From Gemmatimonadota bacterium (GTDB taxonomy: Bacteria > Gemmatimonadota > Gemmatimonadetes > Gemmatimonadales > GWC2-71-9): a stretch of DNA of 64,000 nt. Positions 6,411 to 56,206 of the stretch are shown here, piece after piece. The position numbers and the translations under genes were made by a program. Under the pieces are notes generated by a model. It saw only the letters and a program-made list of their open reading frames with translations, was not told the origin of the DNA and made no database searches. Every line of letters starts with the position of its first letter. The stretch's first letter is position 1. Location: NCBI GenBank assembly GCA_016874005.1, contig VGVQ01000006.1, positions 62,001 through 126,000 of the forward strand, read 5' to 3'.

Positions 6411-7679
6411 ATGCGACCGCTTTCGTTCCGGAGCCGGATCTCGCTGATTCTCTTGCTGTTGGCGACCCCGACCGCGGCGGTCCTGTTCGGCTGGGCCTAC
6501 ACCACCACCACCACCAACAACGCCCAAGCCGCCCAGGCGGCGATCCAGCCGCTCCAGCGATCCGCGCGGAGCTTGCTCGCCGCGCTCGATACCACCCGGT
6601 TGACGGAGCTGGAGCGAGCCGCCCTCCGAGGGTACCGCGATGACCTTCGGGAGCAGCTGTCGCTGACCCGCCAGGCCAGCTTCTACCAGAAACTCAAGAC
6701 GACCGGGCTGGCGATCAGCCTCGCGTTCCTCGGAACCATCCTGCTCTTGCTGGCGATTACCCTCGGGAGCAACCTCGCCCGCCAGTTGAGCTGGCCGATC
6801 GACGAGCTGGTCCAGTGGACGGGGCTGATCCGCCGTAATGAGCCGCTGCCCGACGACCCCCTGCGACCCCGGTCGAGCGCGCCCGAGTTCACCGTTTTGC
6901 GCGACGCGGTGCGGGACATGGCCACCAGCGTGCAGCAGGCCCGGCGATCGGAACTCGAGTCGGAGCGGCTTCGGGCCTTCCGGGAGGTCGCCCGCCGAGT
7001 GGCGCACGAGATGAAGAATCCGCTCACCCCGATTCGCTTCGCGGTCAGTTCGCTCGAGCGGCAGGCCGCGCCGGAACAAGCGGAAGCGCTCGAGGTGCTC
7101 CAGGCCGAGTCGACCCGACTGGAGCAGTTGGCCAGGGACTTCGCCAACCTGGGCCGGTTGCCGGAGGGTCCCCCGGCGGAAGTGGACCTCGCCGAGCTGG
7201 TGGGCGAGCTGATCCGGACCTCGCTGCCGGCCCAAGTGGAAGGGAACCTCACCGCGGACCCGGCCACCCCTCACGTGGTCGGGCATTACGACTCCCTTCG
7301 ACGAGCCCTCGCGAACATCTTCCGCAACAGCGTCGAGGCGATGCATGGCGTCGGCCGACTCGAGGTCACGGTGCGGCCGTGGCAGGGCGGGGTCCGGGTC
7401 TCGATCGCCGATCAAGGCCCCGGCATCGCTCCGGAGAAACGAAGCAGGATCTTCGAGCCGTACTTTACCGATAAGACCGATGGCACCGGCCTGGGCCTCG
7501 CGATCGTCAAGCAGGCCATCGATCTTCACCATGGGGAGGTCGAGGTCTTGGAGACGCCGGGAGGCGGCGCCACCTTCGCGCTGTGGCTTCCGCTGGTTCC
7601 GGAAAGCGCCCGGACCCGGCCGATCGATCGACCTTTCGTGGAACGCCGGATATCCGACCGGCGAAGGAATTGGCGATGA
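6411..7679 (+). CDS. NtrY-like sensor histidine kinase
   Basis: 422-residue membrane histidine kinase. Transmembrane helices at about residues 9-30 and 98-120 flank a short, mostly helical extracytoplasmic segment; a HAMP-like linker follows. The H-box has the phospho-acceptor His199 in RRVAHEMKNPLTPIR, the NtrY/NtrB-type HEMKNPLTP signature. The ATPase domain shows the N-box (NIFRNSVEAM), G1 (ADQGPGIAP), F-box (FEPYFTDK) and G2 (GTGLGLAIV), all intact. Its stop overlaps the regulator's ATG by 4 nt (ATGA), so the pair is cotranslated. The signal sensed is not evident. Confidence 0.9.
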   Translation: MRPLSFRSRISLILLLLATPTAAVLFGWAYTTTTTNNAQAAQAAIQPLQRSARSLLAALDTTRLTELERAALRGYRDDLREQLSLTRQASFYQKLKTTGLAISLAFLGTILLLLAITLGSNLARQLSWPIDELVQWTGLIRRNEPLPDDPLRPRSSAPEFTVLRDAVRDMATSVQQARRSELESERLRAFREVARRVAHEMKNPLTPIRFAVSSLERQAAPEQAEALEVLQAESTRLEQLARDFANLGRLPEGPPAEVDLAELVGELIRTSLPAQVEGNLTADPATPHVVGHYDSLRRALANIFRNSVEAMHGVGRLEVTVRPWQGGVRVSIADQGPGIAPEKRSRIFEPYFTDKTDGTGLGLAIVKQAIDLHHGEVEVLETPGGGATFALWLPLVPESARTRPIDRPFVERRISDRRRNWR

Positions 7680-42591: not shown

Positions 42592-42723
42592 GCTGGTGGC
42601 GTCGGTCTCGTCTCGGCCCTGGCTCGCCCCTCGCGGGAGGACCCGGCGGTCTTCGCGATCAAGGACCGGGTGAGCTACCTGGTGCTCATGGCGATGGGGT
42701 TGGTGACGTTTCTGGCGACCTGA
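42592..42723 (+). pseudogene. Possible remnant of a UbiA-family prenyl/ribosyl transferase C-terminus
   Basis: A 43-codon open stretch with a protein-like end, DPAVFAIKDRVSY followed by a hydrophobic run LVLMAMGLVTFLAT and a stop. The D-P-x-V-F-A-x-K-D pattern and a terminal hydrophobic helix resemble the C-terminus of decaprenyl-phosphate phosphoribosyltransferase-like UbiA proteins. There is no start codon of its own and the rest of the gene is missing. Its end overlaps the FTR1 gene by 38 bp. Evidence is thin because the stretch is short. Confidence 0.35.
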
Positions 42724-44629
42724 GCTCCGGAAGCCGAGCGCTCGCCCGGCGCGGCGACAGCACGAAGGTCCAGACCAGCGCCAGGACGGCGAGGACCACC
42801 AAGATCGCCTGGGCGAGGGTCGATTCGAGCGTGGGGTAGATCCCGAACATCGGCAGCCGACCCATCCAGGCCAGCGCGGTGCTCGTCATCAAACCGCCCT
42901 CCTGCAGCTCGGCGATGGCCTTGCCGGCGAACACGAATGCCATCAGGTAGAGGAACCCGCTCGTCACCGCGAAGAATGGCTTGAGCGGAAGTCGGACCCC
43001 GAATCGGTTGACGGCCAGATAGATGACGGCCAGCATCACCGCGGCCAAGATGAACCCTCCCACCAGGGGGCCGGCCACCGTTCCCTGGCCCCCGGCCGAT
43101 ACCGCGAGCGCCTTGTAAAAGAGGACCGTCTCGAACCCTTCGCGATACACGGCAAGAAACGCCACCGAGGCCAGGGCAACCATCGACCGGCGGGACAGCG
43201 CGTCAGATAACCGACTCCGGACGAAGGCGTTCCAGCGCTGAATCTCCATCTTCGACACCAGCCAGTAACTCACCGAGAACAACATGGCGGTCGCCACCAC
43301 CATGGTGATGCCCTCGAGCACCTCCTGGTGGGCCGGCGTCATCCGGAACACCGTCTCGATGGCCACGGCGGTCGCCACGCTCGCGAGCAGCGCCGCGCCC
43401 ACGCCGAGGTGGATCTCCCGCTTGCGGTGGGCCGCGCCGAGCTTGGCGAGTACCGCGATGAGCGCGCCGACGACCAAGATGGCCTCCAGGCCCTCCCGGA
43501 GGAGAATCAGCGCCGACTGCGCGAACACGGCGACCGGTGTCATCGAGCCGCCGACCACCCGCTCCGCCTTGTCCAGCCCGCGAGCGAGTTCTTCCCGTGG
43601 CGCGGCGAGGCGGGCCGGTTGGGCGGTGAAGTCGCGTACCGAGGCGAACGCCGCCTCCATCCGGGCCACCAGAGCGGGGTCCTTGACTCTGAGTTGCCGC
43701 TCGACCGCCTCGAACGCCATGTAGGCGTCGAGCGCGGCGCTCCTGGCCTCGCCGGCGGCCCCTCGCCTCGCCAGAACCCACGCCGAGTCCAGGTGGGCCC
43801 GAACGGCGGCGAAGACCGGCCGGTAGTCCCGGGCACCGCCGGAACTCCGTCGCACCGCGGCAACTCGGCCCAGGTCGGTCGTGCCTAACGAATCGAGCAA
43901 GGCCGCGTCGGAGAGCCCGACCGTCGCGGTGGGATCGGCCAAGTGGGCCGGAACGCTGCCCCCGGCGGCCGGAAGCCGCAGGGTGCTGGCGTACAACGCC
44001 ACGGCCCATCGATCCGCTGGGGACAAGGTGTGCTCGTAACTCGGCATCGCGGTCCCGACGACGCCGAACGTCACTCGGCGATAGAAGTCGACCGGACTCG
44101 CCCCGGCGAGCGCCGACCGATCAGCGAGATTGGCGGGTTTGGGCTCGAGGCCGACGGAGGCGGGACCGGCACCGTCGCCGCGCTCGCCGTGACAGCTGGC
44201 GCAGCTCGACAGGTAGATCGCTTCCCCCCGCCCGAGGGACGGCGGGGCGTCGGGCCGCTCGGCCAAGGTGACACCCAACTCGGACGCGAGACTCGAGACC
44301 AGTCGTTCGACCCGGGTCTTGGCGCTGTCCGGAACGCCGATGGCGTCGACCCAGCGAATCAAGCCGTCGACTTCGGCGATGACTCGACTTCTGGCCGGCT
44401 CGGGCAGTTGGGCGGCCGCCTTCTTGGCCTCGCCGAAGAACAGCCGGGCCTCTTCGACCTCCGGTTCGAGGACCACCCGTCCGTCGACCACGCCCAGGGC
44501 GTACTCATCGGCCGCGAGCCTTGCCGTGGTCGCGATTCGCGACACGGTGGCGGTTCGGTCTTGGGCCAGGACCGGTTGTGTCAGCCCGGCTCCGGCGATG
44601 AGAATGAGTATCAAGTGATTTCGCGACAT
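42686..44629 (-). CDS. Cytochrome c-FTR1 fusion iron permease
   Basis: 647 residues. A signal peptide ends at LTQPVLAQ. A helical region is followed by a c-type haem domain with CASCH (Cys143-His147) and a probable Met ligand in TAMPSYEH. A second helical stretch precedes an FTR1-type permease of about seven transmembrane helices, with two iron-binding REGLE-type motifs, LLREGLEAILVV and VYREGFETVLFY. Such fusions are thought to couple ferrous iron oxidation to uptake. Start ATG at 44629 gives a normal signal peptide. Confidence 0.88.
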   Translation of the reverse strand: MSRNHLILILIAGAGLTQPVLAQDRTATVSRIATTARLAADEYALGVVDGRVVLEPEVEEARLFFGEAKKAAAQLPEPARSRVIAEVDGLIRWVDAIGVPDSAKTRVERLVSSLASELGVTLAERPDAPPSLGRGEAIYLSSCASCHGERGDGAGPASVGLEPKPANLADRSALAGASPVDFYRRVTFGVVGTAMPSYEHTLSPADRWAVALYASTLRLPAAGGSVPAHLADPTATVGLSDAALLDSLGTTDLGRVAAVRRSSGGARDYRPVFAAVRAHLDSAWVLARRGAAGEARSAALDAYMAFEAVERQLRVKDPALVARMEAAFASVRDFTAQPARLAAPREELARGLDKAERVVGGSMTPVAVFAQSALILLREGLEAILVVGALIAVLAKLGAAHRKREIHLGVGAALLASVATAVAIETVFRMTPAHQEVLEGITMVVATAMLFSVSYWLVSKMEIQRWNAFVRSRLSDALSRRSMVALASVAFLAVYREGFETVLFYKALAVSAGGQGTVAGPLVGGFILAAVMLAVIYLAVNRFGVRLPLKPFFAVTSGFLYLMAFVFAGKAIAELQEGGLMTSTALAWMGRLPMFGIYPTLESTLAQAILVVLAVLALVWTFVLSPRRASARLPELRSPETSPTPSP

Positions 44630-44636
44630 CGCCCCC

Positions 44637-44642
44637 AAACTA
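44637..44642 (-). promoter_or_regulatory. -10 box (TAGTTT) of the FTR1 gene, leaderless type
   Basis: On the minus strand TAGTTT is followed by 7 nt and the ATG at 44629. It lies in the 60-bp gap after acpS. Confidence 0.4.
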
Positions 44643-45759: not shown

Positions 45760-46343
45760 TCCGATGCGGCCTGCCAAGTGGCGGGGGCCCGGTCGAGTGC
45801 CTCGACCGTCAGGATCGCCTTGGTCCCCCTTGCCTCGTAGCGGGCTACGAAGTCGATCAACGACTCCGCCGAGAAAGCGGCCCGAGGAATCCCGCTGGAA
45901 TCGATCGCGCGTTCGATATCGGCATGATCCCCTTCGATTTCGACCAGCACGTCCATCCGGGGGTACCACTCGAGCCGCACGGTCGCCGCCCCGAGCCGGT
46001 ACCACTCGACGTAGCGATCGATCCGGTGGACCGGCTCGAACCCCGCGGCCTCGAGCCAACCGCCGACATCCCCCCGGGCCTCGATCTCGATTTCCCGGCG
46101 GAGCTTCGTTCCCGCTTCCACCGCGACCGGGCCCTTCCAGCCAAGCACTTCGCGAGGCGGATCGCCCTCGCCCCGGTAAACTCGACGCCGAATCACTTCA
46201 TCGCGGGCCGTGAATTCGCCGGCTCGATCGTAGCGGGTGTCGTCCATCCGGCCGCGGTAGATCCGCTCGGCCCCCGCGGCAACGAGGCGCGCGGCGACCG
46301 CGGCCGGGTCGGGAACCACCGCCTTGACTTCCCGTTCGATCAC
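45756..46343 (-). CDS. CYTH-domain protein (class IV adenylate cyclase / thiamine triphosphatase-like)
   Basis: 195 residues from the GTG at 46343 that overlaps the HAD gene stop. The N-terminal ExExK motif (EREVKAVV) and the later basic/acidic strands (RRRVYRGEG, KLRREIEIEA, VEIEGDHADIERAI) define the CYTH triphosphate tunnel, which binds ATP or a triphosphorylated substrate with metal. It may be a CyaB-type cyclase or a triphosphatase; sequence does not decide. Confidence 0.85.
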   Translation of the reverse strand: MIEREVKAVVPDPAAVAARLVAAGAERIYRGRMDDTRYDRAGEFTARDEVIRRRVYRGEGDPPREVLGWKGPVAVEAGTKLRREIEIEARGDVGGWLEAAGFEPVHRIDRYVEWYRLGAATVRLEWYPRMDVLVEIEGDHADIERAIDSSGIPRAAFSAESLIDFVARYEARGTKAILTVEALDRAPATWQAASE

Positions 46344-47047
46344 GGCCCCTCGGCGATGCATCGGTGAACCTCGTCGACCGCGGTGAAGTCGGCGAATACC
46401 GCTTGCGCGCCGGCGGCCGCGAGGTCGGCCTCGGCGAAATTGCCGGTGGTGACGCCGATCGCCCGAGCCCCGATCCCGTTGCCGCAGGTCATGTCGGCCG
46501 GGGTATCGCCGAGGATCACCACCTCCCGCCCGCCGACCGCGCGGCCGAAGTACTGCCGGGCCCGCTCGACGGCGATGGGCGGAAGCGCCGATCGTTCGGG
46601 ATGATCGGATCCGTATGCCCCAACCGCGAATCGCTCCGGTGCGATCCCCACGGCGCGAAGCTTGACCGCGGCACCGTGGCTCACGTTGCCGGTGAGCAAT
46701 CCCACCACCAAGCGGCGATCGGCCCACAGTCGGTCGAGCAGGCTCGCGACGCCGGGCATCACCTTGGCACGATGGGCGTTGACCGCCAGGTCGGCCTCCA
46801 GATGCCAGAGGTACCGCTCGATCACCCTGGCCATTCGCGTCGGGGTACACTCCGAGCCCCGCCCGGCGGCGTGGAACAGCTCCGAGACGATCGCGGGATC
46901 TGTCTTGCCGTCGAACCGAACTCGTTCGAGGTGCTCGGCGTCGATTCCGGTTTCGTCGTGGAGGGCCCGGAGTACGGCCCGTTTGCCCGCGCCACCCGAA
47001 AGCAGCAGAGTACCGTCGATGTCGAACAGAACCAGCCGCTCCCTCAC
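46340..47047 (-). CDS. HAD-superfamily hydrolase (phosphoglycolate phosphatase-like)
   Basis: 235 residues from the GTG at 47047 overlapping the zinc-ribbon stop. Catalytic DxD motif FDIDGTLL, motif II LLTGN, and motif IV GDTPADM. Small C1-cap typical of the Gph/PGMB group. With glcDEF at the far end of the window a glycolate link is conceivable but not shown. Confidence 0.88.
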   Translation of the reverse strand: MRERLVLFDIDGTLLLSGGAGKRAVLRALHDETGIDAEHLERVRFDGKTDPAIVSELFHAAGRGSECTPTRMARVIERYLWHLEADLAVNAHRAKVMPGVASLLDRLWADRRLVVGLLTGNVSHGAAVKLRAVGIAPERFAVGAYGSDHPERSALPPIAVERARQYFGRAVGGREVVILGDTPADMTCGNGIGARAIGVTTGNFAEADLAAAGAQAVFADFTAVDEVHRCIAEGP

Positions 47048-47244: not shown

Positions 47245-48582
47245 CTAGTCCGAGATATTGTAGAGCTTGATCTTGTTGATCAGCGTCGCCCGGGAGATCC
47301 CCAGCTCCTTCGCGGCCCGGGTCCGGTTCCCACCGTGGTACCGGAGCGTTCGATCGATGTGCTGTTGCTCGAGCGCCTCGAGGGTCATTGGCGTGTGGCG
47401 CCGATCGCCGACTCCGGACCGAGCCCGGAATTCACCGGGAAGATGCTCCACGTTGATGGTGACCTGACCTCGGGCCACCAACATCGACCGCTCCAACACG
47501 TTGCCCATCTCCCGAACGTTGCCGGGCCAGGAGTAGCCGAGGAACCGTTCGTGAACGTCGACGGCCAGCTGGGCGGGACCCTCCGGCAGCTCGAGTCGGA
47601 GGTCTTGATGGATCGAGGTGATCAGCCCCAGTTTGTCTTCCTGGGAGCGATCCCGCACCGGCGGCACGTGCAAGGGCATCACCGAGAGGCGGTAGAAGAG
47701 ATCCTCGCGGAGCCGTTCGGCCGCGACATCCTCGGAGAGCGGCCGCCGTGCCGTCACCATCAGACGGGTGTCGACCACGATGTCGTCCGACCCCCCCAAC
47801 CGGCGAAAGGTGCGGCTTTCCAGCGCCCGGAGCAGCTTCGGCTGCACCTCGGCGGGGAGGTCACCGATCTCGCGCAGCAGCACGGTCCCACCGTCGGCGG
47901 TCTCCATCAGACCGCGGCGCCGTTCGGTGGCCTCCACGAAGACGCCTTGCTCGTGGCCAAAGAGGAGCGATTCGAGGTAGGCGGCGTTCATCCCGGTGCA
48001 GCGGACCTCGAAGAATGGCTTCTTCGCTCGGCTGCCCAAATCGTGGATCAGCCGGGCCGCCCACGCCTTGCCCACCCCGGCCTCGCCCTGGACGAGGATG
48101 GTGGTGCGGTCGCTCTGGGCGTGGAGCCCGATCTGCTGGGCGACCTGCTTCATCGCGTTCGAGGTTCCCAGCGAATCGAGGCCGTGCCGCGGCGCGGTCA
48201 TGGCGAGTTGGGTCTCGATCACCCGTTGCGCCTTGGCCGCCCGGGCCGACGTCTTGGCAACCGAGACGACAGTCGCGAAGTCCGCCCCGACATCCACCAC
48301 CAGCTGCGCCCCGGCCTCGAGACCCCGCTTCACGGTGCCTCGATCGGGTTGCTCCCCGAACAACACGACTGGAATGCCGTGCCCCCCGAGCCGCCCGATG
48401 GCTTCCGGCGCGGCCAGCGAGGTCGCGAGCAGGATGGTATCGGGCCGCGACCTGGTGAGGGTGGCCGCCGCGGTCTCCACCGAAAGCTCCCGCACGATTT
48501 CGCTTCCGGTTTCTTCGAACCGGGCACCGACGGCTCGGAGCAACGACGGGTCGTCATGGACCAGCAGAATGCAGTCGGTCAT
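47245..48582 (-). CDS. NtrC-like regulator with degenerate receiver and AAA+ motifs
   Basis: 445 residues with the order receiver, AAA+, Fis-type HTH. The receiver keeps Asp10/Asp11 but Ala53 replaces the phospho-acceptor and the switch-lysine segment is absent. In the AAA+ domain the P-loop lysine is kept (GEAGVGKA, 166-173) but the sigma54-contacting GAFTGA loop is GVFVEA (213-218) and the Walker B aspartate is Arg237 (LLREIGD). The arginine-finger region REDLFYRLSVMP and the C-terminal HTH (NRTRAAKELGISRATLINK) are well preserved. It should bind DNA but is unlikely to drive sigma54 promoters. GGGGAG precedes the ATG. Confidence 0.88.
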   Translation of the reverse strand: MTDCILLVHDDPSLLRAVGARFEETGSEIVRELSVETAAATLTRSRPDTILLATSLAAPEAIGRLGGHGIPVVLFGEQPDRGTVKRGLEAGAQLVVDVGADFATVVSVAKTSARAAKAQRVIETQLAMTAPRHGLDSLGTSNAMKQVAQQIGLHAQSDRTTILVQGEAGVGKAWAARLIHDLGSRAKKPFFEVRCTGMNAAYLESLLFGHEQGVFVEATERRRGLMETADGGTVLLREIGDLPAEVQPKLLRALESRTFRRLGGSDDIVVDTRLMVTARRPLSEDVAAERLREDLFYRLSVMPLHVPPVRDRSQEDKLGLITSIHQDLRLELPEGPAQLAVDVHERFLGYSWPGNVREMGNVLERSMLVARGQVTINVEHLPGEFRARSGVGDRRHTPMTLEALEQQHIDRTLRYHGGNRTRAAKELGISRATLINKIKLYNISD

Positions 48583-48607: not shown

Positions 48608-49510
48608 TCAGAGTGTGGGCGCGAACACCGCGAGCGCGCCGGGTTGGATTTCCGCCGTCACCGGCGTCACGCCGGCCAGATCGCCATCGTATTGCACCGG
48701 CTGCGGGACCGGCATCTCCACCGTCACCACCCGGCCCCGCCCATAACGAAGGTACGGGGTCTCCCCGCCGCCGGTGACGAAGTTCAAGAAAGTTCGAGAG
48801 GCCCCCCGAAGGACTTCCCAGGGTGAGTTCGCCGACAGAATCAAGACATCCAGCCAGCCGTCGTCGAAGGCCGCGTCGCGTCGAACCGCCACCAGGGGCG
48901 GGATCACCTCGGGGCAATTGAGCACCAGCACCACCGCCGCCTCGGTCTCGATTCGCTGGTCATCGACCGTCACGACGCAGGGCGTCGACCGGAGCTCGGG
49001 AATGACCCGGAACAGGGTTTGGAAGTAACCGCCGATCCCCAGCCGGCGCTTGTCGCCGGTGGCGGTTTCGCCCATGACCCGGGCGTCGGCCCCGGCACCG
49101 CAGGCCACCCCGAAGTAATGCACCCCATCGTCCCTGGTGAGTCGCCCCAGGTCGACTCGCCTGATCCGGCCCTCGAGGATGATCTCGGCGGCCTTGAGCA
49201 TCGTCCTCGGAAGCCGGAGGTTACCGGCCAGCACGTTGCCGGTACCCCCCGGAAGCAGGCCGATCGGTACTCCTGTGTTCGCGACCGCGGCGGCGGCCTG
49301 CATCGTGGTCCCGTCGCCCCCCATCACCAAGATGGCCTCGGCGCCGTCTCGGACCGCGGCGGCGGCGAGGTCCCGAGCGTGCCCGGGACCTCGGGTGGCC
49401 TCCCACTCGACCCTCCAACCGGCCAGCCGAAAGGTCCGCAGCAGTACCTCGAGGGCCTCGGGACTGGCGCGGCCGGCGACCGGGTTGGCGATCAGGAAGG
49501 CGCGCGGCAT
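48608..49510 (-). CDS. YegS/DgkB-type lipid kinase
   Basis: 300 residues. GGDGT nucleotide-binding motif in VMGGDGTTMQ, then GLLPGGTGNVLA, and the C-terminal AAFDDGWLDVLI and QYDGDLAG segments. Such enzymes phosphorylate diacylglycerol or related lipids at the membrane. It follows tamB by 2 nt and precedes the regulator gene, so it may share its transcript. Confidence 0.88.
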   Translation of the reverse strand: MPRAFLIANPVAGRASPEALEVLLRTFRLAGWRVEWEATRGPGHARDLAAAAVRDGAEAILVMGGDGTTMQAAAAVANTGVPIGLLPGGTGNVLAGNLRLPRTMLKAAEIILEGRIRRVDLGRLTRDDGVHYFGVACGAGADARVMGETATGDKRRLGIGGYFQTLFRVIPELRSTPCVVTVDDQRIETEAAVVLVLNCPEVIPPLVAVRRDAAFDDGWLDVLILSANSPWEVLRGASRTFLNFVTGGGETPYLRYGRGRVVTVEMPVPQPVQYDGDLAGVTPVTAEIQPGALAVFAPTL

Positions 49511-49512
49511 CG

Positions 49513-52500
49513 CTAGTACTCGCGGTCCCAGCGCAGGTCGGCACCGAACTGATAGCGGCTCGCCGCCACCAGGGTGCTGGCCGCTTGCGTCAAGCAGGTC
49601 TGGACCGGCTCCGCGGCCGCCTGGAGCTTGAGCGAGCTATGGAGCCGATACTCGATGGTGGCGCCGAAGTACCGGGCGTTCAAGTAGTCGCCGGTCCGCA
49701 GGCAGGTTCCCAAGTTAACCGTCGCGAAGAGGTTGCGGCTGAGTTGGCGGCCCAGCGCCAGCGTCGTCACGGTGCCACCCGTCGCGAAAGACCCGCTGCC
49801 CTGGAGGAACCCGGGCCGGATCTCGACCAGATCGAGCGGCAGCCCGATATCGGAGATCAGCGATCGCTGCAGCTCGGTGGACAACACCGTCGACGCCAGC
49901 GAGGCGGCGCTGGTCAGATCGAAGTCGTTCAGCACCCCGCCGCTCAAGAAGGCGTTCGAGGGGCTCCCGGTCACCAGAAGAGCCACCAGGTCTTTTTCGG
50001 GCAAGGCGGGTCGGCCGGGCTCCGACGCCAGTGTCAGCTTGGGCACCAGCAGGGTCCCGCTGATCCGCGCGATGACCGGGTAATCGTCGCCGGCGGTCCG
50101 CACCAAGTACCGCGCCCGCAAGTCGAGACTCGCGTTCAAATCCGCGGTGTTGAAGTACCGGACCGTCCCCTGCTCGACGGCGAAGGTCCGGAACACCGGT
50201 CCGAGCTTGAGGATGTAGGTGCCCCGCCCGGTGACGAATTCGCCGCTCACCCGATACTCGCTCCGGCGAGCCCGGCGCCGCTCCTTGTTGACCACGACCT
50301 GGCCTTCGAGCGACACGTTGGCCTCGTTGGAACGAAGCCAGACGTCTTCGCCGACCCGGAACCGGAGGTCGCGAATCGTGAGCGAATCGAGAAATCGGCT
50401 CTGGAATTGGGCCCGCAGCCGCTGAGCCCGGAGCGCCGTGGTATCGACCAGATCGACGTTGAGGGGGTCCTCCAAATTGACGATGTCCTTGGTGATCAGG
50501 TCGGCGAAGTACACCACACTGTTGGTGGCCAGCGCTTGACCGGTCAGCACCGGACGTTCGATCGGCCCGGTCAGGGCCACCTCGCCCCGAGCCCGGAGCG
50601 TGAGGTAGTCGCGAACGTCGATCAGCGGAAAATCGAACGCGGTCAGGCGGAGATCGAGGACCGGCCGGGTGAGCCGCTCGAGCCGCACCGCTCCCCGAAT
50701 CACCGCCTGCCCGATCCCCCCACCAATCACCAGCGAGTCGGCAACCAAGGAATCGCCGGTGAGCCGAATGGTGCCGTCGATCGGGCCATACCCCACCCCG
50801 AGTCCGGGGACGTAGCCCGATCCGTTCCGGAAGCTCACCGATCCGCCCAGCCGAGGCGCATCCCAGGTCCCCGCGACCACCACGTCGATCCCGAGGCTCC
50901 CGGCGACCCGACGAACGTTTGGCGTGAGCGCCTCCACCACGCCCAGATCGACGCTGTCGGCGCGGCCTCGAATCGTAAGCCGCCCGGGAAGCTGCCGTTT
51001 CCCGGCGGCATCGAACGCGAGGTCGAGCGGCAACTCCGCGTCGACGTCGAGCACCGGCCGGCCGGTTCGCCATAAGGTGAGATTGCTTTGGAACCGCCGG
51101 TCTTCGTAGTTGTACACTCCCCGGACCAAGGGCGCGAACACATCGCCGATGGCCGGTCCCGTCACCGAGACCGATCCGCGAAGCGTCGGCGCCGCCCGGG
51201 TCCCGCCAACCCGGGCATCCAACGCCACCGTACCGCCGACGCCCGCGGTATCCCGTTGGGCCAAGGCGTAGAGGTCGCGAAGCTCCACCCCGATGGCCGA
51301 GATCGCCGCCAGGCCCGCGGACCGGCCGGGGATCGCGCCCTCGAGGCGAATCGAGCCCGATCCATCGGAGGTCTCGACCACCGCCGTGTCGGTGGCTGCC
51401 ACCGAATCGAGATGGATCCGAATGGGCCGCGCCAGTTGCCAACGCCGGTCGAGCAGATCCAAGGAGAGAGAGTCCACCCCGACCACGGTCGTGCCGTCGC
51501 CGGGTTGCCACCTGCCGCCCACGGCGACCGACGCCGTCTGTCCGAGCGATCCGACCACGTTCCAGGCGAGATCCTCCACCGCCCCTGCCGCTCGGCCCCC
51601 GAGCCCGGCGAATCGGAACCTGCCCCGTTCCAGCGAATCGATCTCGACCTGGACATCGACCCGGGTCGGTGCGAGGCGGCCGGCATCCACGAACGCCGCG
51701 GCCCGGGCCGAGCGGATCTTCGCCTCGAGCCAGGCCACCGAGTCGGCTCGCCCTTGGCCTTCGAGCCGCCATCGATCGAGCGAACCGGTGACGGTCGCCG
51801 CCCCAGCGCTGCGCCCCGAAAGAAGCTCATCGTCGAACACTTCCTGGCGCGCCAGCCCGACCACGGTCGCGAGCAACGAATCGAACGGCGACAGGGTCCG
51901 CGCCACCCAACCGATTTCGAGCCTCCCGCTGCGACCCTCCGCCCATCCCAAGGCGCCGGCGGCCCCGCTCCCGCCACCTTCCCACTGGAGCGCCGCGGTG
52001 TCGACCCGGATCATGCTGTCGGCGATGGCGAGGGTGGTCCAGGCCGAATCGATGGTCAGCTCACGAATCGTCCCGCGCCGCAATTCGAGGCGGAGATCCG
52101 TCTCGGGGGCTCGGAGGGTATCGAGAGAGCCTCGAAGCCGGAGTCGGCCCGCGAGCCGGGAAACCGGCCCGCGGCCGCCTAACGCCGCGAGATCGGCATT
52201 CTCGAAATCGATCAGCAGCGAATCGGCCGCCCACTTCGGCGGCTGGAGCGTGGTAACGCCACCGAAACGGTACTGACCGATCGCCCCCGTCAACGCCCCC
52301 GCCATTTCCAACCGGGCGAGATCGCCTCGCAGGTCCACTCGCCCCCTCACCCGGCCCCGCATCGGGGTGCTCGGGAAACTGGGCCGAATCCCGTCGAACT
52401 CCAGGGTATCGACGACCAGGTTGGCCTCGATGCCGAGGATCGGACCGCGGGTGTCGAGGCGGGTCCGCCCGGTCACCGCCGACATCGGCAGCCCGCCGTG

Positions 52501-53958
52501 CCGGTGTTCGGCCCGGCCGTCGAACACGACATCGCGGAGGGGACCTTCCAGGACCCCGGCCAGGCCGAGCCGGCCCTCGAGCGCCGCTCCCGGCGCCACC
52601 AGCCGGACGGTCCCGAGGTCGAGGTCCGACCGCATCAGCCGAGTTCCGTGAAACGTCAGTCCCTCCGGCCCGCCAAGGGTCAGGTCCCCGGCGAACGTCA
52701 GGCGATTCTCCGGCTCGCCCGCCACTCTGGCATCACGGAAGGTCCAGTCCGCGTCGACCGTCATCCGGTCGAAGAACCCATCCGCCCGCAACGAACCGGT
52801 CAATCGGCCCGCGAACGGCAAGGTGTCGAGATAGGGCCGAATCGCCTCGAGGTCGACATTGTCCAGTCCAACATCCAGGCCCCGGAACCCGAGCCCTCGA
52901 TGGACGTCGAGAATGGCGGTCAGGCTGCCCTCGACCCGCGAGGTCCGGTCGCCGACCGCCAGGTCGGTCATCCGATATTCGGTTCGACTGCCGGCGATCG
53001 GCGAGGAGCGAACCTTGGCCGCCCCCTGCCACGACGGGAACAGGGGGGAGATCCAGCGGAGGTCCGCGAGGTCCATCTCGGGCACCTCGAGGTCGATCGA
53101 GTAGAGCACCGTGTCCGCCGGCCAGTCGAGCCGGCCGGATCCCCGGGCGACGGTCCGCGGAAGCGACACTTGCTCCAGCGTGAACAGGAGACTGTCGGCG
53201 CCCTGAACGATGGTGCCGGTCAGGTCACGAACCGAGATCCCGGGGTCGCTCACCACGGCCGCCAGGGTGTCGATGGTTGCCGTGAACGGGGTGCGGTCGG
53301 GCGAGGAGAGCAACATCATCGGCATCGTCGCGCGGAGCCCTGACACCGTCCGCCGGAGCATCAGGCCATCGGAGCCCAATCCGCCCGGCTCGATGATTCG
53401 CCCCGGTTTGGCCCGCTCGGCGACGAGAGCGGAATCGCGCTGTCGCGCGGTGCGAAGCCGACCATCGGGATTCCACGGGGTTCGGACGATGGCATGGCCA
53501 TCGACGATCGTCAGGTTGTCCAACCGAATCAGCGGCGACGGTCCGCCGCCGCCAATCCCCTCGCCGAGTCGGAGGACCTCCTGGTAGTTCATCCGGCCGC
53601 CCCGGTGCTTGACGATCTCGAGCCGCGGGCCGGTTGCGATCACCGAATCGAACACGAACCGCCGAGCGAGCAGCGTCCGGAGCCGATAGCGGATCTCGAG
53701 CCGACCGATGTCCGCCAAGAGGGCGCCGGTGGTGTCGCGAATGACCACGGAGTCGAGCGAAAGGCGCGAGAGGAAGTCCCCGCTGATCCGGCCGAGGTGG
53801 ACCGAGCCGCGCACCAGCCGATTGGACTCCTCGGACAGCAGCCGGGCCAAGAGGTCCTTGCCGGGTCGCGAAATGACCAGGGCCGCGGCGGTCCCCATCA
53901 CCGCGGCGAGCGCCGCCGCGATGAAGACGAAGGTGGCCCGAGCCAGGGTGCGGCGCAT
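49513..53958 (-). CDS. tamB: TamB-like translocation and assembly protein
   Basis: 1481 residues. One N-terminal membrane helix (about residues 8-30), then a very long beta-rich periplasmic region, and a C-terminal DUF490 domain (from about residue 1130: PLNVDLVDTTALRAQRL, EANVSLEGQVVVNKE, GRGTYILKLGP, KDLVALLVTGSPS). TamB forms a hydrophobic groove between inner and outer membrane for lipid or barrel-protein transfer. ATG at 53958 overlaps the barrel gene stop (TGATG), the TamA-TamB pairing seen in many diderms. Confidence 0.9.
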   Translation of the reverse strand: MRRTLARATFVFIAAALAAVMGTAAALVISRPGKDLLARLLSEESNRLVRGSVHLGRISGDFLSRLSLDSVVIRDTTGALLADIGRLEIRYRLRTLLARRFVFDSVIATGPRLEIVKHRGGRMNYQEVLRLGEGIGGGGPSPLIRLDNLTIVDGHAIVRTPWNPDGRLRTARQRDSALVAERAKPGRIIEPGGLGSDGLMLRRTVSGLRATMPMMLLSSPDRTPFTATIDTLAAVVSDPGISVRDLTGTIVQGADSLLFTLEQVSLPRTVARGSGRLDWPADTVLYSIDLEVPEMDLADLRWISPLFPSWQGAAKVRSSPIAGSRTEYRMTDLAVGDRTSRVEGSLTAILDVHRGLGFRGLDVGLDNVDLEAIRPYLDTLPFAGRLTGSLRADGFFDRMTVDADWTFRDARVAGEPENRLTFAGDLTLGGPEGLTFHGTRLMRSDLDLGTVRLVAPGAALEGRLGLAGVLEGPLRDVVFDGRAEHRHGGLPMSAVTGRTRLDTRGPILGIEANLVVDTLEFDGIRPSFPSTPMRGRVRGRVDLRGDLARLEMAGALTGAIGQYRFGGVTTLQPPKWAADSLLIDFENADLAALGGRGPVSRLAGRLRLRGSLDTLRAPETDLRLELRRGTIRELTIDSAWTTLAIADSMIRVDTAALQWEGGGSGAAGALGWAEGRSGRLEIGWVARTLSPFDSLLATVVGLARQEVFDDELLSGRSAGAATVTGSLDRWRLEGQGRADSVAWLEAKIRSARAAAFVDAGRLAPTRVDVQVEIDSLERGRFRFAGLGGRAAGAVEDLAWNVVGSLGQTASVAVGGRWQPGDGTTVVGVDSLSLDLLDRRWQLARPIRIHLDSVAATDTAVVETSDGSGSIRLEGAIPGRSAGLAAISAIGVELRDLYALAQRDTAGVGGTVALDARVGGTRAAPTLRGSVSVTGPAIGDVFAPLVRGVYNYEDRRFQSNLTLWRTGRPVLDVDAELPLDLAFDAAGKRQLPGRLTIRGRADSVDLGVVEALTPNVRRVAGSLGIDVVVAGTWDAPRLGGSVSFRNGSGYVPGLGVGYGPIDGTIRLTGDSLVADSLVIGGGIGQAVIRGAVRLERLTRPVLDLRLTAFDFPLIDVRDYLTLRARGEVALTGPIERPVLTGQALATNSVVYFADLITKDIVNLEDPLNVDLVDTTALRAQRLRAQFQSRFLDSLTIRDLRFRVGEDVWLRSNEANVSLEGQVVVNKERRRARRSEYRVSGEFVTGRGTYILKLGPVFRTFAVEQGTVRYFNTADLNASLDLRARYLVRTAGDDYPVIARISGTLLVPKLTLASEPGRPALPEKDLVALLVTGSPSNAFLSGGVLNDFDLTSAASLASTVLSTELQRSLISDIGLPLDLVEIRPGFLQGSGSFATGGTVTTLALGRQLSRNLFATVNLGTCLRTGDYLNARYFGATIEYRLHSSLKLQAAAEPVQTCLTQAASTLVAASRYQFGADLRWDREY

Positions 53959-56096
53959 CAGAACGCCTGACCCACGGAGAATTGGATGTTGAACGGGAAG
54001 CTCGAACGCTGGACCTTGCGGAAGTCGTCCCGCACCCGGAACAGGTCGTTGCTGGTCGCGGCGAACAACACCCCGGTCGGCAGGTCGGATTTGTTGTAGG
54101 CGAGGTCGAAGCGCATCGGGCCGAGGGGAGTCGCGAACCGGAACCCGAACCCCGGGGTCACCCGGAACACGGCACCGGTGGCGAAGGCGCCCCCCCGTTC
54201 CCAGACGCCGCCCCCGTCCACGAACAGCGCCCACCGTAACCGACCGGCCAGCAACGGCGAGGGCAGTCGCAGCTCGACATTGGCCAGCGCCAGGGTGTTG
54301 CCCCCGGTCGGCGCGACCTGCACCTCGTCGAGGTCGATCACGGTGCTGTCGGGCCGGAGATTGCTTTCGTCGGTCAGGTAGACGACCGGGCCGAGCTGGT
54401 TGCGGTCGAACCCACGGACGTCGTTCGCACCGCCGGCGTAGAATCGCTGATCGGGCGGCACGAAGTTGCCAGCGGCGCCACCGAGCCTGAGCCGGGGCGC
54501 GAAGGTGATCCCCCCCTTGAGCCGCGCGGCGAGAACCACCTCGCTGCCTAACGGCCGGTACCACGACCCCTCGGCGACCAGCCGAGTGAACTCGGAGAAC
54601 CGGGTCGACCCGAGCCACGGCGCGCTCACGGTGGCTTCGAAACTGTAGATCGAGCCCCGGCTCGGATCGAGGAGGTTGTTGACCCGTTGTCGCGCCACCG
54701 ACCCGGTCAGGGTCGCTCCGATTCGCCGATCACTCAGCTGAGCCACGTCCTCCGCCAGGCAGGCGAAGAAGAAGGCGCAGAACCGAACCGGATCGGCCTC
54801 CGTCGCGCCATAGGAGATCCGATACGCCAGCGACACCGGCACACCCAGGGCGCCCTCCCGGGTGAAGGTCAGGCTCGCCCCGATGTCGTCCCGAGAAAAG
54901 ACCCGGAACTCCGAACGCCGCTCGGCGAACAACGAACCGGTGAGCGCGTTGGCCGGCGACAGGAAGGCCGGCCGCCGGAGGGAGGCGGTCAACCCGTAGT
55001 TCATCCGGCGAGAGCCCAAGGTGTCCTCCTCCAGCTTGTCGCAGACCGTGGAGCGGAACGGATCCACGGTCACCCCGATCTTGGAAACCTGGCCACTGAA
55101 GTCTACCTGGCGGCCACGCCCCCCGACGTTTCGAGCGGTCCAGCCGGCCGCCGCGCGAATGCAGTCGTTGGTCGCGATGCCAAGTCCGGCCCGAGCCCGA
55201 TGGAGGGGACCTTCCTGAACTCGTACCAGCAACGGAACGGTTTGATCGCCGATGGCGAACCGGGTGGTGTCCGTCCCAACCGACGCGAAGCGGAACAAAC
55301 CCGATTGGTAGAGGTTGAGCTGACTTCGGTACAGCTCGGCGTAGCGGAACGGCCGGCCGGTTCGGGTCGCCAGGAGCTCGCGCACCAGCGAGGAGTCCAC
55401 CGCCTCGGTGCCCTCGACCCGAACCGACCCGATGGTCGCCGGTTGCCCGAGCTCGGCCGTCAGCTCGACGACCACACTCCTGGCCGTTCGGTCCACCTCC
55501 GGCCGGCGCAACAGCACCGAGGCGGTCGGAAAGCCGCGATCCCAAAGGCGCAGCTGCACCGTGTCGATCGCCGCGAGCAGTCGGTACCGGTTGAAGGGCA
55601 TTCCTTCCCGGAGCGGCAGATCGCGAACCACTTCGGCGCGATCGGCCAGGGAGTCGAGCCCCGCCACCACGACGGACCGCACCCGGATCGGCTCCCCCTC
55701 GGTGATCCGCATCGTGATGAACGCGTCAGTCGCCGTGCGCACGACGGTGGTGTCGACCCGAGCGTCGAGAAACCCGCTCATCTGGTAGAACAGCCGAATC
55801 CGGGCGACATCAACCCGGAACTCCCGCTCGTTGAGCCGGCGCTTCTCCCCGAGCCCGAGCCAACGGACCAGGGAGCTCCGGGCAAACCAGCTCGACTTCG
55901 TCGTCGAAATCGCTGCCTCGAGGGCCAGCGCGTCGATCGACGCGTTCCCTTCGAAGTCGAGCCGACGAATGACCAAACCCGCGTCTTGAGCCCGTAACGG
56001 TTCAGTGACCCCACCAACCGCGACCACTGCCAAAATCCAGAACATGGCAGGGCCCCAACAGGGCGGCGGGCGACGCGCTCCCGGAATTGACCACAC
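53958..56096 (-). CDS. BamA/TamA-family outer-membrane barrel protein
   Basis: 712 residues. A signal peptide ends near PLRAQD; POTRA-like repeats (IRRLDFEGNASIDALAL, RVRSVVVAGLDSLA, IGSVRVEGTEAVDSSLV) precede the D15 barrel with GGANDVRGF (the conserved L6-type loop, normally VRGF/Y) and a terminal Phe (VGQAF). Partner of the adjacent TamB. I chose the GTG at 56096 because TACATT lies 6 nt upstream (leaderless pattern); an ATG at 56045 would remove 17 residues before the hydrophobic core and is also possible. Confidence 0.87.
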   Translation of the reverse strand: MWSIPGARRPPPCWGPAMFWILAVVAVGGVTEPLRAQDAGLVIRRLDFEGNASIDALALEAAISTTKSSWFARSSLVRWLGLGEKRRLNEREFRVDVARIRLFYQMSGFLDARVDTTVVRTATDAFITMRITEGEPIRVRSVVVAGLDSLADRAEVVRDLPLREGMPFNRYRLLAAIDTVQLRLWDRGFPTASVLLRRPEVDRTARSVVVELTAELGQPATIGSVRVEGTEAVDSSLVRELLATRTGRPFRYAELYRSQLNLYQSGLFRFASVGTDTTRFAIGDQTVPLLVRVQEGPLHRARAGLGIATNDCIRAAAGWTARNVGGRGRQVDFSGQVSKIGVTVDPFRSTVCDKLEEDTLGSRRMNYGLTASLRRPAFLSPANALTGSLFAERRSEFRVFSRDDIGASLTFTREGALGVPVSLAYRISYGATEADPVRFCAFFFACLAEDVAQLSDRRIGATLTGSVARQRVNNLLDPSRGSIYSFEATVSAPWLGSTRFSEFTRLVAEGSWYRPLGSEVVLAARLKGGITFAPRLRLGGAAGNFVPPDQRFYAGGANDVRGFDRNQLGPVVYLTDESNLRPDSTVIDLDEVQVAPTGGNTLALANVELRLPSPLLAGRLRWALFVDGGGVWERGGAFATGAVFRVTPGFGFRFATPLGPMRFDLAYNKSDLPTGVLFAATSNDLFRVRDDFRKVQRSSFPFNIQFSVGQAF

Positions 56097-56102
56097 GATC
56101 TA

Positions 56103-56108
56103 AATGTA
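56103..56108 (-). promoter_or_regulatory. -10 box (TACATT) of the tamA/bamA-tamB unit, leaderless type
   Basis: TACATT on the minus strand is 6 nt before the GTG at 56096. The 110-bp gap to the divergent dacB gene contains no other clear promoter. Confidence 0.4.
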
Positions 56109-56206
56109 GTAGCCTGATGGCGTTACGTCACCCGTTTCCAGAGGGGCACCGATGCCAGCCGCAACCAGCACGCCGTCCAGGTCCCGTTTCAGCCCCGGAT
56201 CGGTCG

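Follow-up and report, generated by a model that had tools for sequence, protein, structure and literature searches.

The window analysed here is a whole stretch of 64,000 nucleotides from a Gemmatimonadota bacterium, and the gene of interest, which is read on the minus strand from an ATG at position 48582 down to 47245, encodes an NtrC-family regulator (Table 1). Its REC-AAA+-HTH architecture is supported by Pfam and by structure, with the receiver sub-threshold in Pfam: Sigma54_activat (E 1.3e-50), HTH_8 (E 1.3e-13) and the AAA lid are matched, and Response_reg is found with an E of 0.011 only, under the cut-off. An AlphaFold model of the whole regulator shows an intact fold (pLDDT 89.5), which matches NtrC1 (1ny5, Z 33.4, rmsd 5.2, 378 aligned) and, over nearly its full length, Brucella NtrX (5m7p, Z 31.7, rmsd 6.3, 423 aligned), which ranks with the best matches at full length; VpsR and FleQ are matched as well.

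Table 1. Features of the regulator and its conserved neighbours, in positions of the window.
Feature	Position	Strand	Remarks	Basis
HAD hydrolase	46340..47020	(-)	conserved downstream neighbour; start approximate	
Double-zinc-finger protein, 63 aa	47044..47235	(-)	unannotated; directly downstream, 9 nt past the regulator stop codon	
NtrC-family regulator, REC-AAA+-HTH, 445 aa	47245..48582	(-)	remodelled	ORF reading, Pfam
Fis-type HTH, aa 398-445	47248..47391	(-)	conservation of 97-99% in most columns (119 orthologues)	
AAA+ domain, aa 136-375	47458..48177	(-)	retains Walker A and arginine fingers but not the catalytic or sigma-54-contact residues	
Codon 279	47746..47748	(-)	Arg replaces sensor I Asn; Arg in 6/6 of genus	
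Codon 237	47872..47874	(-)	Arg replaces Walker B Asp; Arg in 10/10 genomes, five genera	
L1 loop GVFVEA, aa 213-218	47929..47946	(-)	replaces GAFTDA/GAFTGA; key Thr216 is Val in 6/6 of genus	
Codon 194	48001..48003	(-)	Arg replaces switch Asn	
Walker A GEAGVGKA, aa 166-173	48064..48087	(-)	Lys172 kept in 118/119 orthologues	
Pseudo-receiver domain, aa 1-118	48229..48582	(-)	D9H, D53A, T76G, K98V	Pfam, orthologue alignment
Codon 53	48424..48426	(-)	Ala replaces phospho-acceptor Asp; genus A5/S1; D in 44/44 canonical orthologues	
dagK/YegS-type lipid kinase	48608..49510	(-)	conserved upstream neighbour	
tamB	49513..54618	(-)	conserved neighbour; exact start codon unsure, with the listed ORF overlapping that of tamA	
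tamA-like Omp85 protein	53958..56096	(-)	conserved neighbour	

The first-pass annotation had reported three losses in this reading frame, of the phospho-acceptor (Ala53), of the sigma-54 contact motif (GVFVEA at 213-218) and of the Walker B aspartate (Arg237), and all three are present. However, the list was incomplete, as D9H, T76G, K98V, N194R and N279R have to be added. Of the receiver phosphorylation set only D10 is left, next to H9, A53, G76 and V98; the contact motif is absent, with Thr216 changed to Val; and arginines at 194, 237 and 279 stand in place of catalytic AAA+ residues. The nucleotide-binding P-loop (GEAGVGK, with K172 of Walker A), E238 of Walker B, the arginine fingers R292 and R298, sensor II R357 and the HTH are all kept, the last as had been noticed from the sequence of this one gene.

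Around the regulator the gene order is tamA-tamB-dagK-regulator-small zinc protein-HAD, and a fusion of a cytochrome c domain and an FTR1-type iron permease (42686-44638 of the window, minus strand) is conserved near this cluster. The zinc protein carries eight invariant cysteines in the pattern CRxCGxEERASEGYPCxxCGTFICxxC...CxxC; it matches no Pfam family above the cut-off, with weak matches only, to RING/PHD/C1 and TraR, and a cross-brace zinc fold is predicted. Of 298 genomes sampled from the phylum, 140 encode it; the matches listed all belong to this order, and it persists even in genomes without the regulator. In two genomes (G217 and G180; L246, L247) the regulator is missing, and a protein of 560-590 amino acids, possibly a hybrid kinase, lies beside the zinc protein instead; its C-terminal part matches the receiver of the regulator. 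No histidine kinase adjoining the regulator was recognised by eye among the neighbouring open reading frames of 15 genomes. Upstream of tamA, promoter-like blocks are found (window 56096-56140, L266-L284), each conserved in its own lineage, such as TGGCGTAAC-N~18-ATTTAGA in one group and GTGTCGAAAAGGTTGACA in another; an operator or dyad shared across the lineages compared was not found there.

The regulator is found across the Gemmatimonadales, with a strong match in 79 of 102 genomes of the family and in 185 of 288 genomes of the order, the weakest of which may be paralogues. As the order tamA-tamB-dagK-regulator-HAD is conserved in three families, I take these matches to be true orthologues. 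Plasmid-borne relatives were not found at E<=1e-70. A second orthologue in the same genome that could compensate for the losses was ruled out, as the next matches are paralogues of 28-38% identity; the genome encodes seven other NtrC-type activators, and in each of those covered by the motif table the loop is of the GAFTGA type and the Walker B Asp is present.

A tree was made from 119 proteins (117 syntenic or near-syntenic orthologues and two outgroup rows) by quick maximum likelihood with the motif columns removed, and many of its inner branches are weak. Of the 119 rows, 46 have an intact GAF/YTxA loop motif, which reads GAFTDA or GAYTDA in the orthologues. Both are listed as functional, activation-competent variants in D. 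vulgaris (PMC4641369); VfmH of Dickeya also carries GAFTDA, and sigma-54 was not found in a VfmH pull-down (PMC10714721). In all 44 orthologues with an intact GAF/YTDA loop, positions 9, 53, 76, 98, 194, 216, 237 and 279 are canonical, which suggests that the ancestor was most likely a phosphorylated, ATP-hydrolysing activator of the sigma-54 type. Not one of the 46 intact-loop rows is without sensor I Asn, switch Asn, Walker B Asp or receiver Asp, whereas among the 73 rows that have lost the loop, sensor I Asn is missing in 68, switch Asn in 41, Walker B Asp in 18 and receiver Asp in 12. By these raw counts, the sigma-54 loop appears always to have been lost ahead of the catalytic residues. 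In a second family of the order, the loop motif is missing in all members read. On the tree the loop was lost at least about nine times, or 11 times if regain is forbidden, and the independent losses amount to about seven for Walker B Asp, 9-13 for sensor I Asn, 10-17 for switch Asn and about five for the receiver Asp. Sign tests of correlated loss on the phylogeny have low power (five supported independent pairs, p>=0.06), so that the nested order of losses rests on the raw counts. Throughout, 118 of the 119 rows retain Walker A Lys, and one arginine finger is present in 116 and the other in 115.

Within the genus of the window, all six genomes have a full-length open reading frame with H9, V216, R237 and R279, and residue 53 is Ala in five and Ser in one. 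These six form a clade with G057, G069, G075 and G097 (SH-aLRT 95), and R237 is found in all ten genomes of this clade, which span five genera. Pairwise dN/dS in the genus lies between 0.08 and 0.21, and by domain it is 0-0.08 in the HTH, 0.08-0.22 in the AAA+ domain and 0.14-0.36 in the receiver, values that are approximate because dS is near 1. Compared to the canonical set, the window clade has a higher identity in the HTH (0.83 vs. 0.73) and in the linker 376-397 (0.86 vs. 0.57), while the receiver and the AAA+ domain are less conserved. The fixation of the losses in the genus, the low dN/dS and the strong constraint on the HTH indicate a regulator that is not decaying: it appears to be under purifying selection with its centre of gravity shifted. 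Judged from these alignments, the regulator of this lineage of soil bacteria has lost the residues needed to be phosphorylated, to cleave ATP and to contact sigma-54, and its DNA-reading part has stayed nearly constant. This agrees with the initial proposal of a remodelled protein rather than random decay. The same proposal held that canonical residues in orthologues would mark this copy as a decaying gene; such residues do occur in other genera, but the pattern is one of an ancestral canonical state and a lineage-wide loss, not of decay of one copy.

Several relatives have gone further. In G008 (L239:3941-4534), a relative of genomes with a canonical regulator, a protein of 197 amino acids lies between dagK and the zinc gene, in which the receiver, its phospho-Asp changed to Gly, is fused in frame to the HTH and the AAA+ domain is excised. 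Candidates for further AAA+-deleted versions were rejected, as the short frames in G189, G199 and G026 are contig ends, which leaves G008 as the sole clean case. Three genomes of genus g48 (G141, G142 and G143; L242, L248, L261) have lost the receiver and kept AAA+-HTH. Remnants of the regulator are found in G062 and G286, and in at least seven genomes (G052, G087, G070, G032, G088, G099 and G033) dagK adjoins the zinc gene with no regulator in between, so that some lineages can do without its function. Loss of rpoN as a cause of these changes was ruled out, as rpoN is present in the genome itself, in 91 of 102 genomes of the family and in 49 of its 50 high-quality genomes; thus the regulator departed from sigma-54 and not the reverse.

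Taken together, the protein is probably a working transcription regulator that does not depend on sigma-54 and descends from a two-component activator of the NtrC type. I infer the lost functions from the residue changes. In the lineage of the window, as the sequences show, the sigma-54 contact loop was lost first, followed by catalysis and then by the receiver site. The DNA-binding HTH was retained through these losses, as were the lysine of the P-loop and both arginine fingers. The regulator would bind its DNA sites without phosphorylation, and its AAA+ domain, probably a nucleotide-binding scaffold, would not hydrolyse ATP and would serve in oligomerisation, possibly fixed in one nucleotide-bound state. 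The Walker B Asp is needed for ATP hydrolysis and not for ATP binding, and NtrC proteins without GAFTGA act at sigma-70 promoters, that of R. capsulatus needing ATP binding and not hydrolysis (PMC10274813). Control would be exerted at sigma-70-type promoters through contact or occlusion, and a role as repressor is possible, alongside that of a sigma-70 activator. The targets are probably local, namely the tamA-tamB-dagK envelope-lipid cluster and possibly the adjacent small zinc protein. A bolder reading, which I consider tentative and rather doubtful as a whole, is that one syntenic regulator was converted many times in parallel from a sigma-54 activator into a motor-free DNA-binding regulator in a fixed order (contact loop, catalysis, phosphorylation, and finally domain excision or gene loss), and that in the window clade the change of the Walker B Asp to Arg was selected, locking the AAA+ ring with nucleotide bound but no magnesium, a state in which the HTHs are held on the DNA.

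Alternatively, the AAA+ domain and the receiver may be under relaxed constraint in a gene that is slowly heading for loss, as in the sister lineages. The remnants and the seven genomes without a regulator could be its later stages, and the nested order in which losses pile up and the fast evolution of the receiver within the genus fit as well. However, slow decay is unlikely to have left full-length frames in all six genomes of the genus, new residues that are identical between genomes (R237 in 10 of 10; V216, R279 and H9 in 6 of 6), the low dN/dS of the HTH and also of the AAA+ domain, and a linker that is better conserved than in the canonical set. At the opposite end, the protein could still be a sigma-54 activator whose loop and Walker B, though divergent, function by a non-canonical mechanism. 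The presence of rpoN agrees with this, and one EBP of D. vulgaris with GVATGV is predicted to act at sigma-54 promoters (PMC4641369), but with Thr216, Walker B Asp, sensor I Asn and switch Asn all gone I find it hardly credible, as changes of the loop Thr/Phe reduce or mostly abolish activation (PMC3162934) and hydrolysis requires the Walker B Asp (PMC10274813).

A protein that keeps its arginine fingers and AAA+ fold but lacks hydrolysis and the contact loop is what a dominant-negative anti-activator would look like, poisoning mixed rings with an intact sigma-54 activator; the seven other NtrC-type activators of the genome, whose loop is intact wherever the motif table covers it, would provide partners. 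The partner named in the first-pass annotation, the NtrX-like protein at 7676 (G000:C6:69676), is indeed intact as had been stated, with its phospho-Asp, GAFTGA and LDEVGDL. Yet it is only about 29-32% identical to the regulator (28-38% for these paralogues), the HTH segments differ (NRTRAAKELGISRATLINKIK in the regulator vs. NVAEAARALQTDRANLYRRMK in the NtrX-like protein), and the fixed tamA-tamB-dagK context is unrelated to the NtrX-like gene, so that the suggested pairing found no support. Since the HTH, which is unnecessary for poisoning rings, is the most conserved part and persists in G008 with no AAA+ domain at all, I regard such a role as highly improbable in general. A ligand-binding regulator of sigma-70 promoters such as VpsR or FleQ, with the AAA+ pocket as the sensor of c-di-GMP or another nucleotide, seems very unlikely too. 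The P-loop is retained, both VpsR and FleQ turn up as structural matches, and the new arginines at 194, 237 and 279 fall in motifs from which the nucleotide pocket of this family is built. In c-di-GMP effectors of the FleQ/VpsR type, the binding arginines include those of the LFRS motif and RxxxR. However, the window protein has GLDSLG, in which the Arg of the FleQ LFRS motif seems to be missing by inspection, and G008 does without the pocket entirely.

While individual examples of sigma-54 activators that became sigma-70 regulators have been described, motor loss without regulon loss is not understood. As intact, loop-less, catalytically dead, AAA+-less REC-HTH and gene-loss states are all on offer in one order, this path is testable stepwise. 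Domain libraries place such proteins in families of sigma-54-dependent regulators despite the missing contact motif, which is a warning for annotation.

EBP homologues without the GAFTGA loop are known, among them TyrR, DhaR, HupR, VpsR and YplP (PMC3162934). The NtrC of R. capsulatus resembles the window protein in its REC-AAA+-HTH layout without GAFTGA and in that ATP binding without hydrolysis suffices (PMC10274813); however, its receiver phosphorylation is kept and required, while the window protein lacks the phospho-acceptor and has Arg in Walker B. The same layout is found in Caulobacter NtrC and in Brucella and Caulobacter NtrX, and the two Caulobacter proteins lack GAFTGA, but Caulobacter NtrC depends on its phospho-Asp and on Walker A and B (PMC10274813). 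HupR, TyrR, DhaR and YplP share the loss of GAFTGA, and the first three are sigma-70 dependent (PMC3162934), but they have other input domains or phospho-state logic, other targets and a context that is not orthologous. VpsR and VspR are EBPs with an altered GAFTGA; VspR works at sigma-70 promoters independently of both phosphorylation and ATP (PMC10274813), but it senses phosphate via its Asp site, and VpsR differs in binding c-di-GMP (structure entry title). As the loop motif and the catalytic residues are absent, the window protein falls outside the sigma-54-dependent activators; with its loop 1 motif lost and its HTH conserved, the best reading of its sequence is a mode of action like that of the EBP-derived regulators independent of sigma-54 (R. 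capsulatus NtrC, HupR, TyrR, VspR). Regulators of the RegA/PrrA/ActR type have a REC-HTH layout and are phosphorylated. The G008 orthologue, with REC and a Fis-type HTH after the loss of AAA+, resembles these but has lost its phospho-Asp, and the window protein still has its full AAA+ domain. What appears new in comparison to all of these systems is, first, that a receiver and an ATPase that both seem dead are combined with a lost loop in one protein, with the Walker B Arg fixed, and second, that one syntenic orthologue has been dismantled repeatedly and by degrees, as far as the excision of its AAA+ domain.
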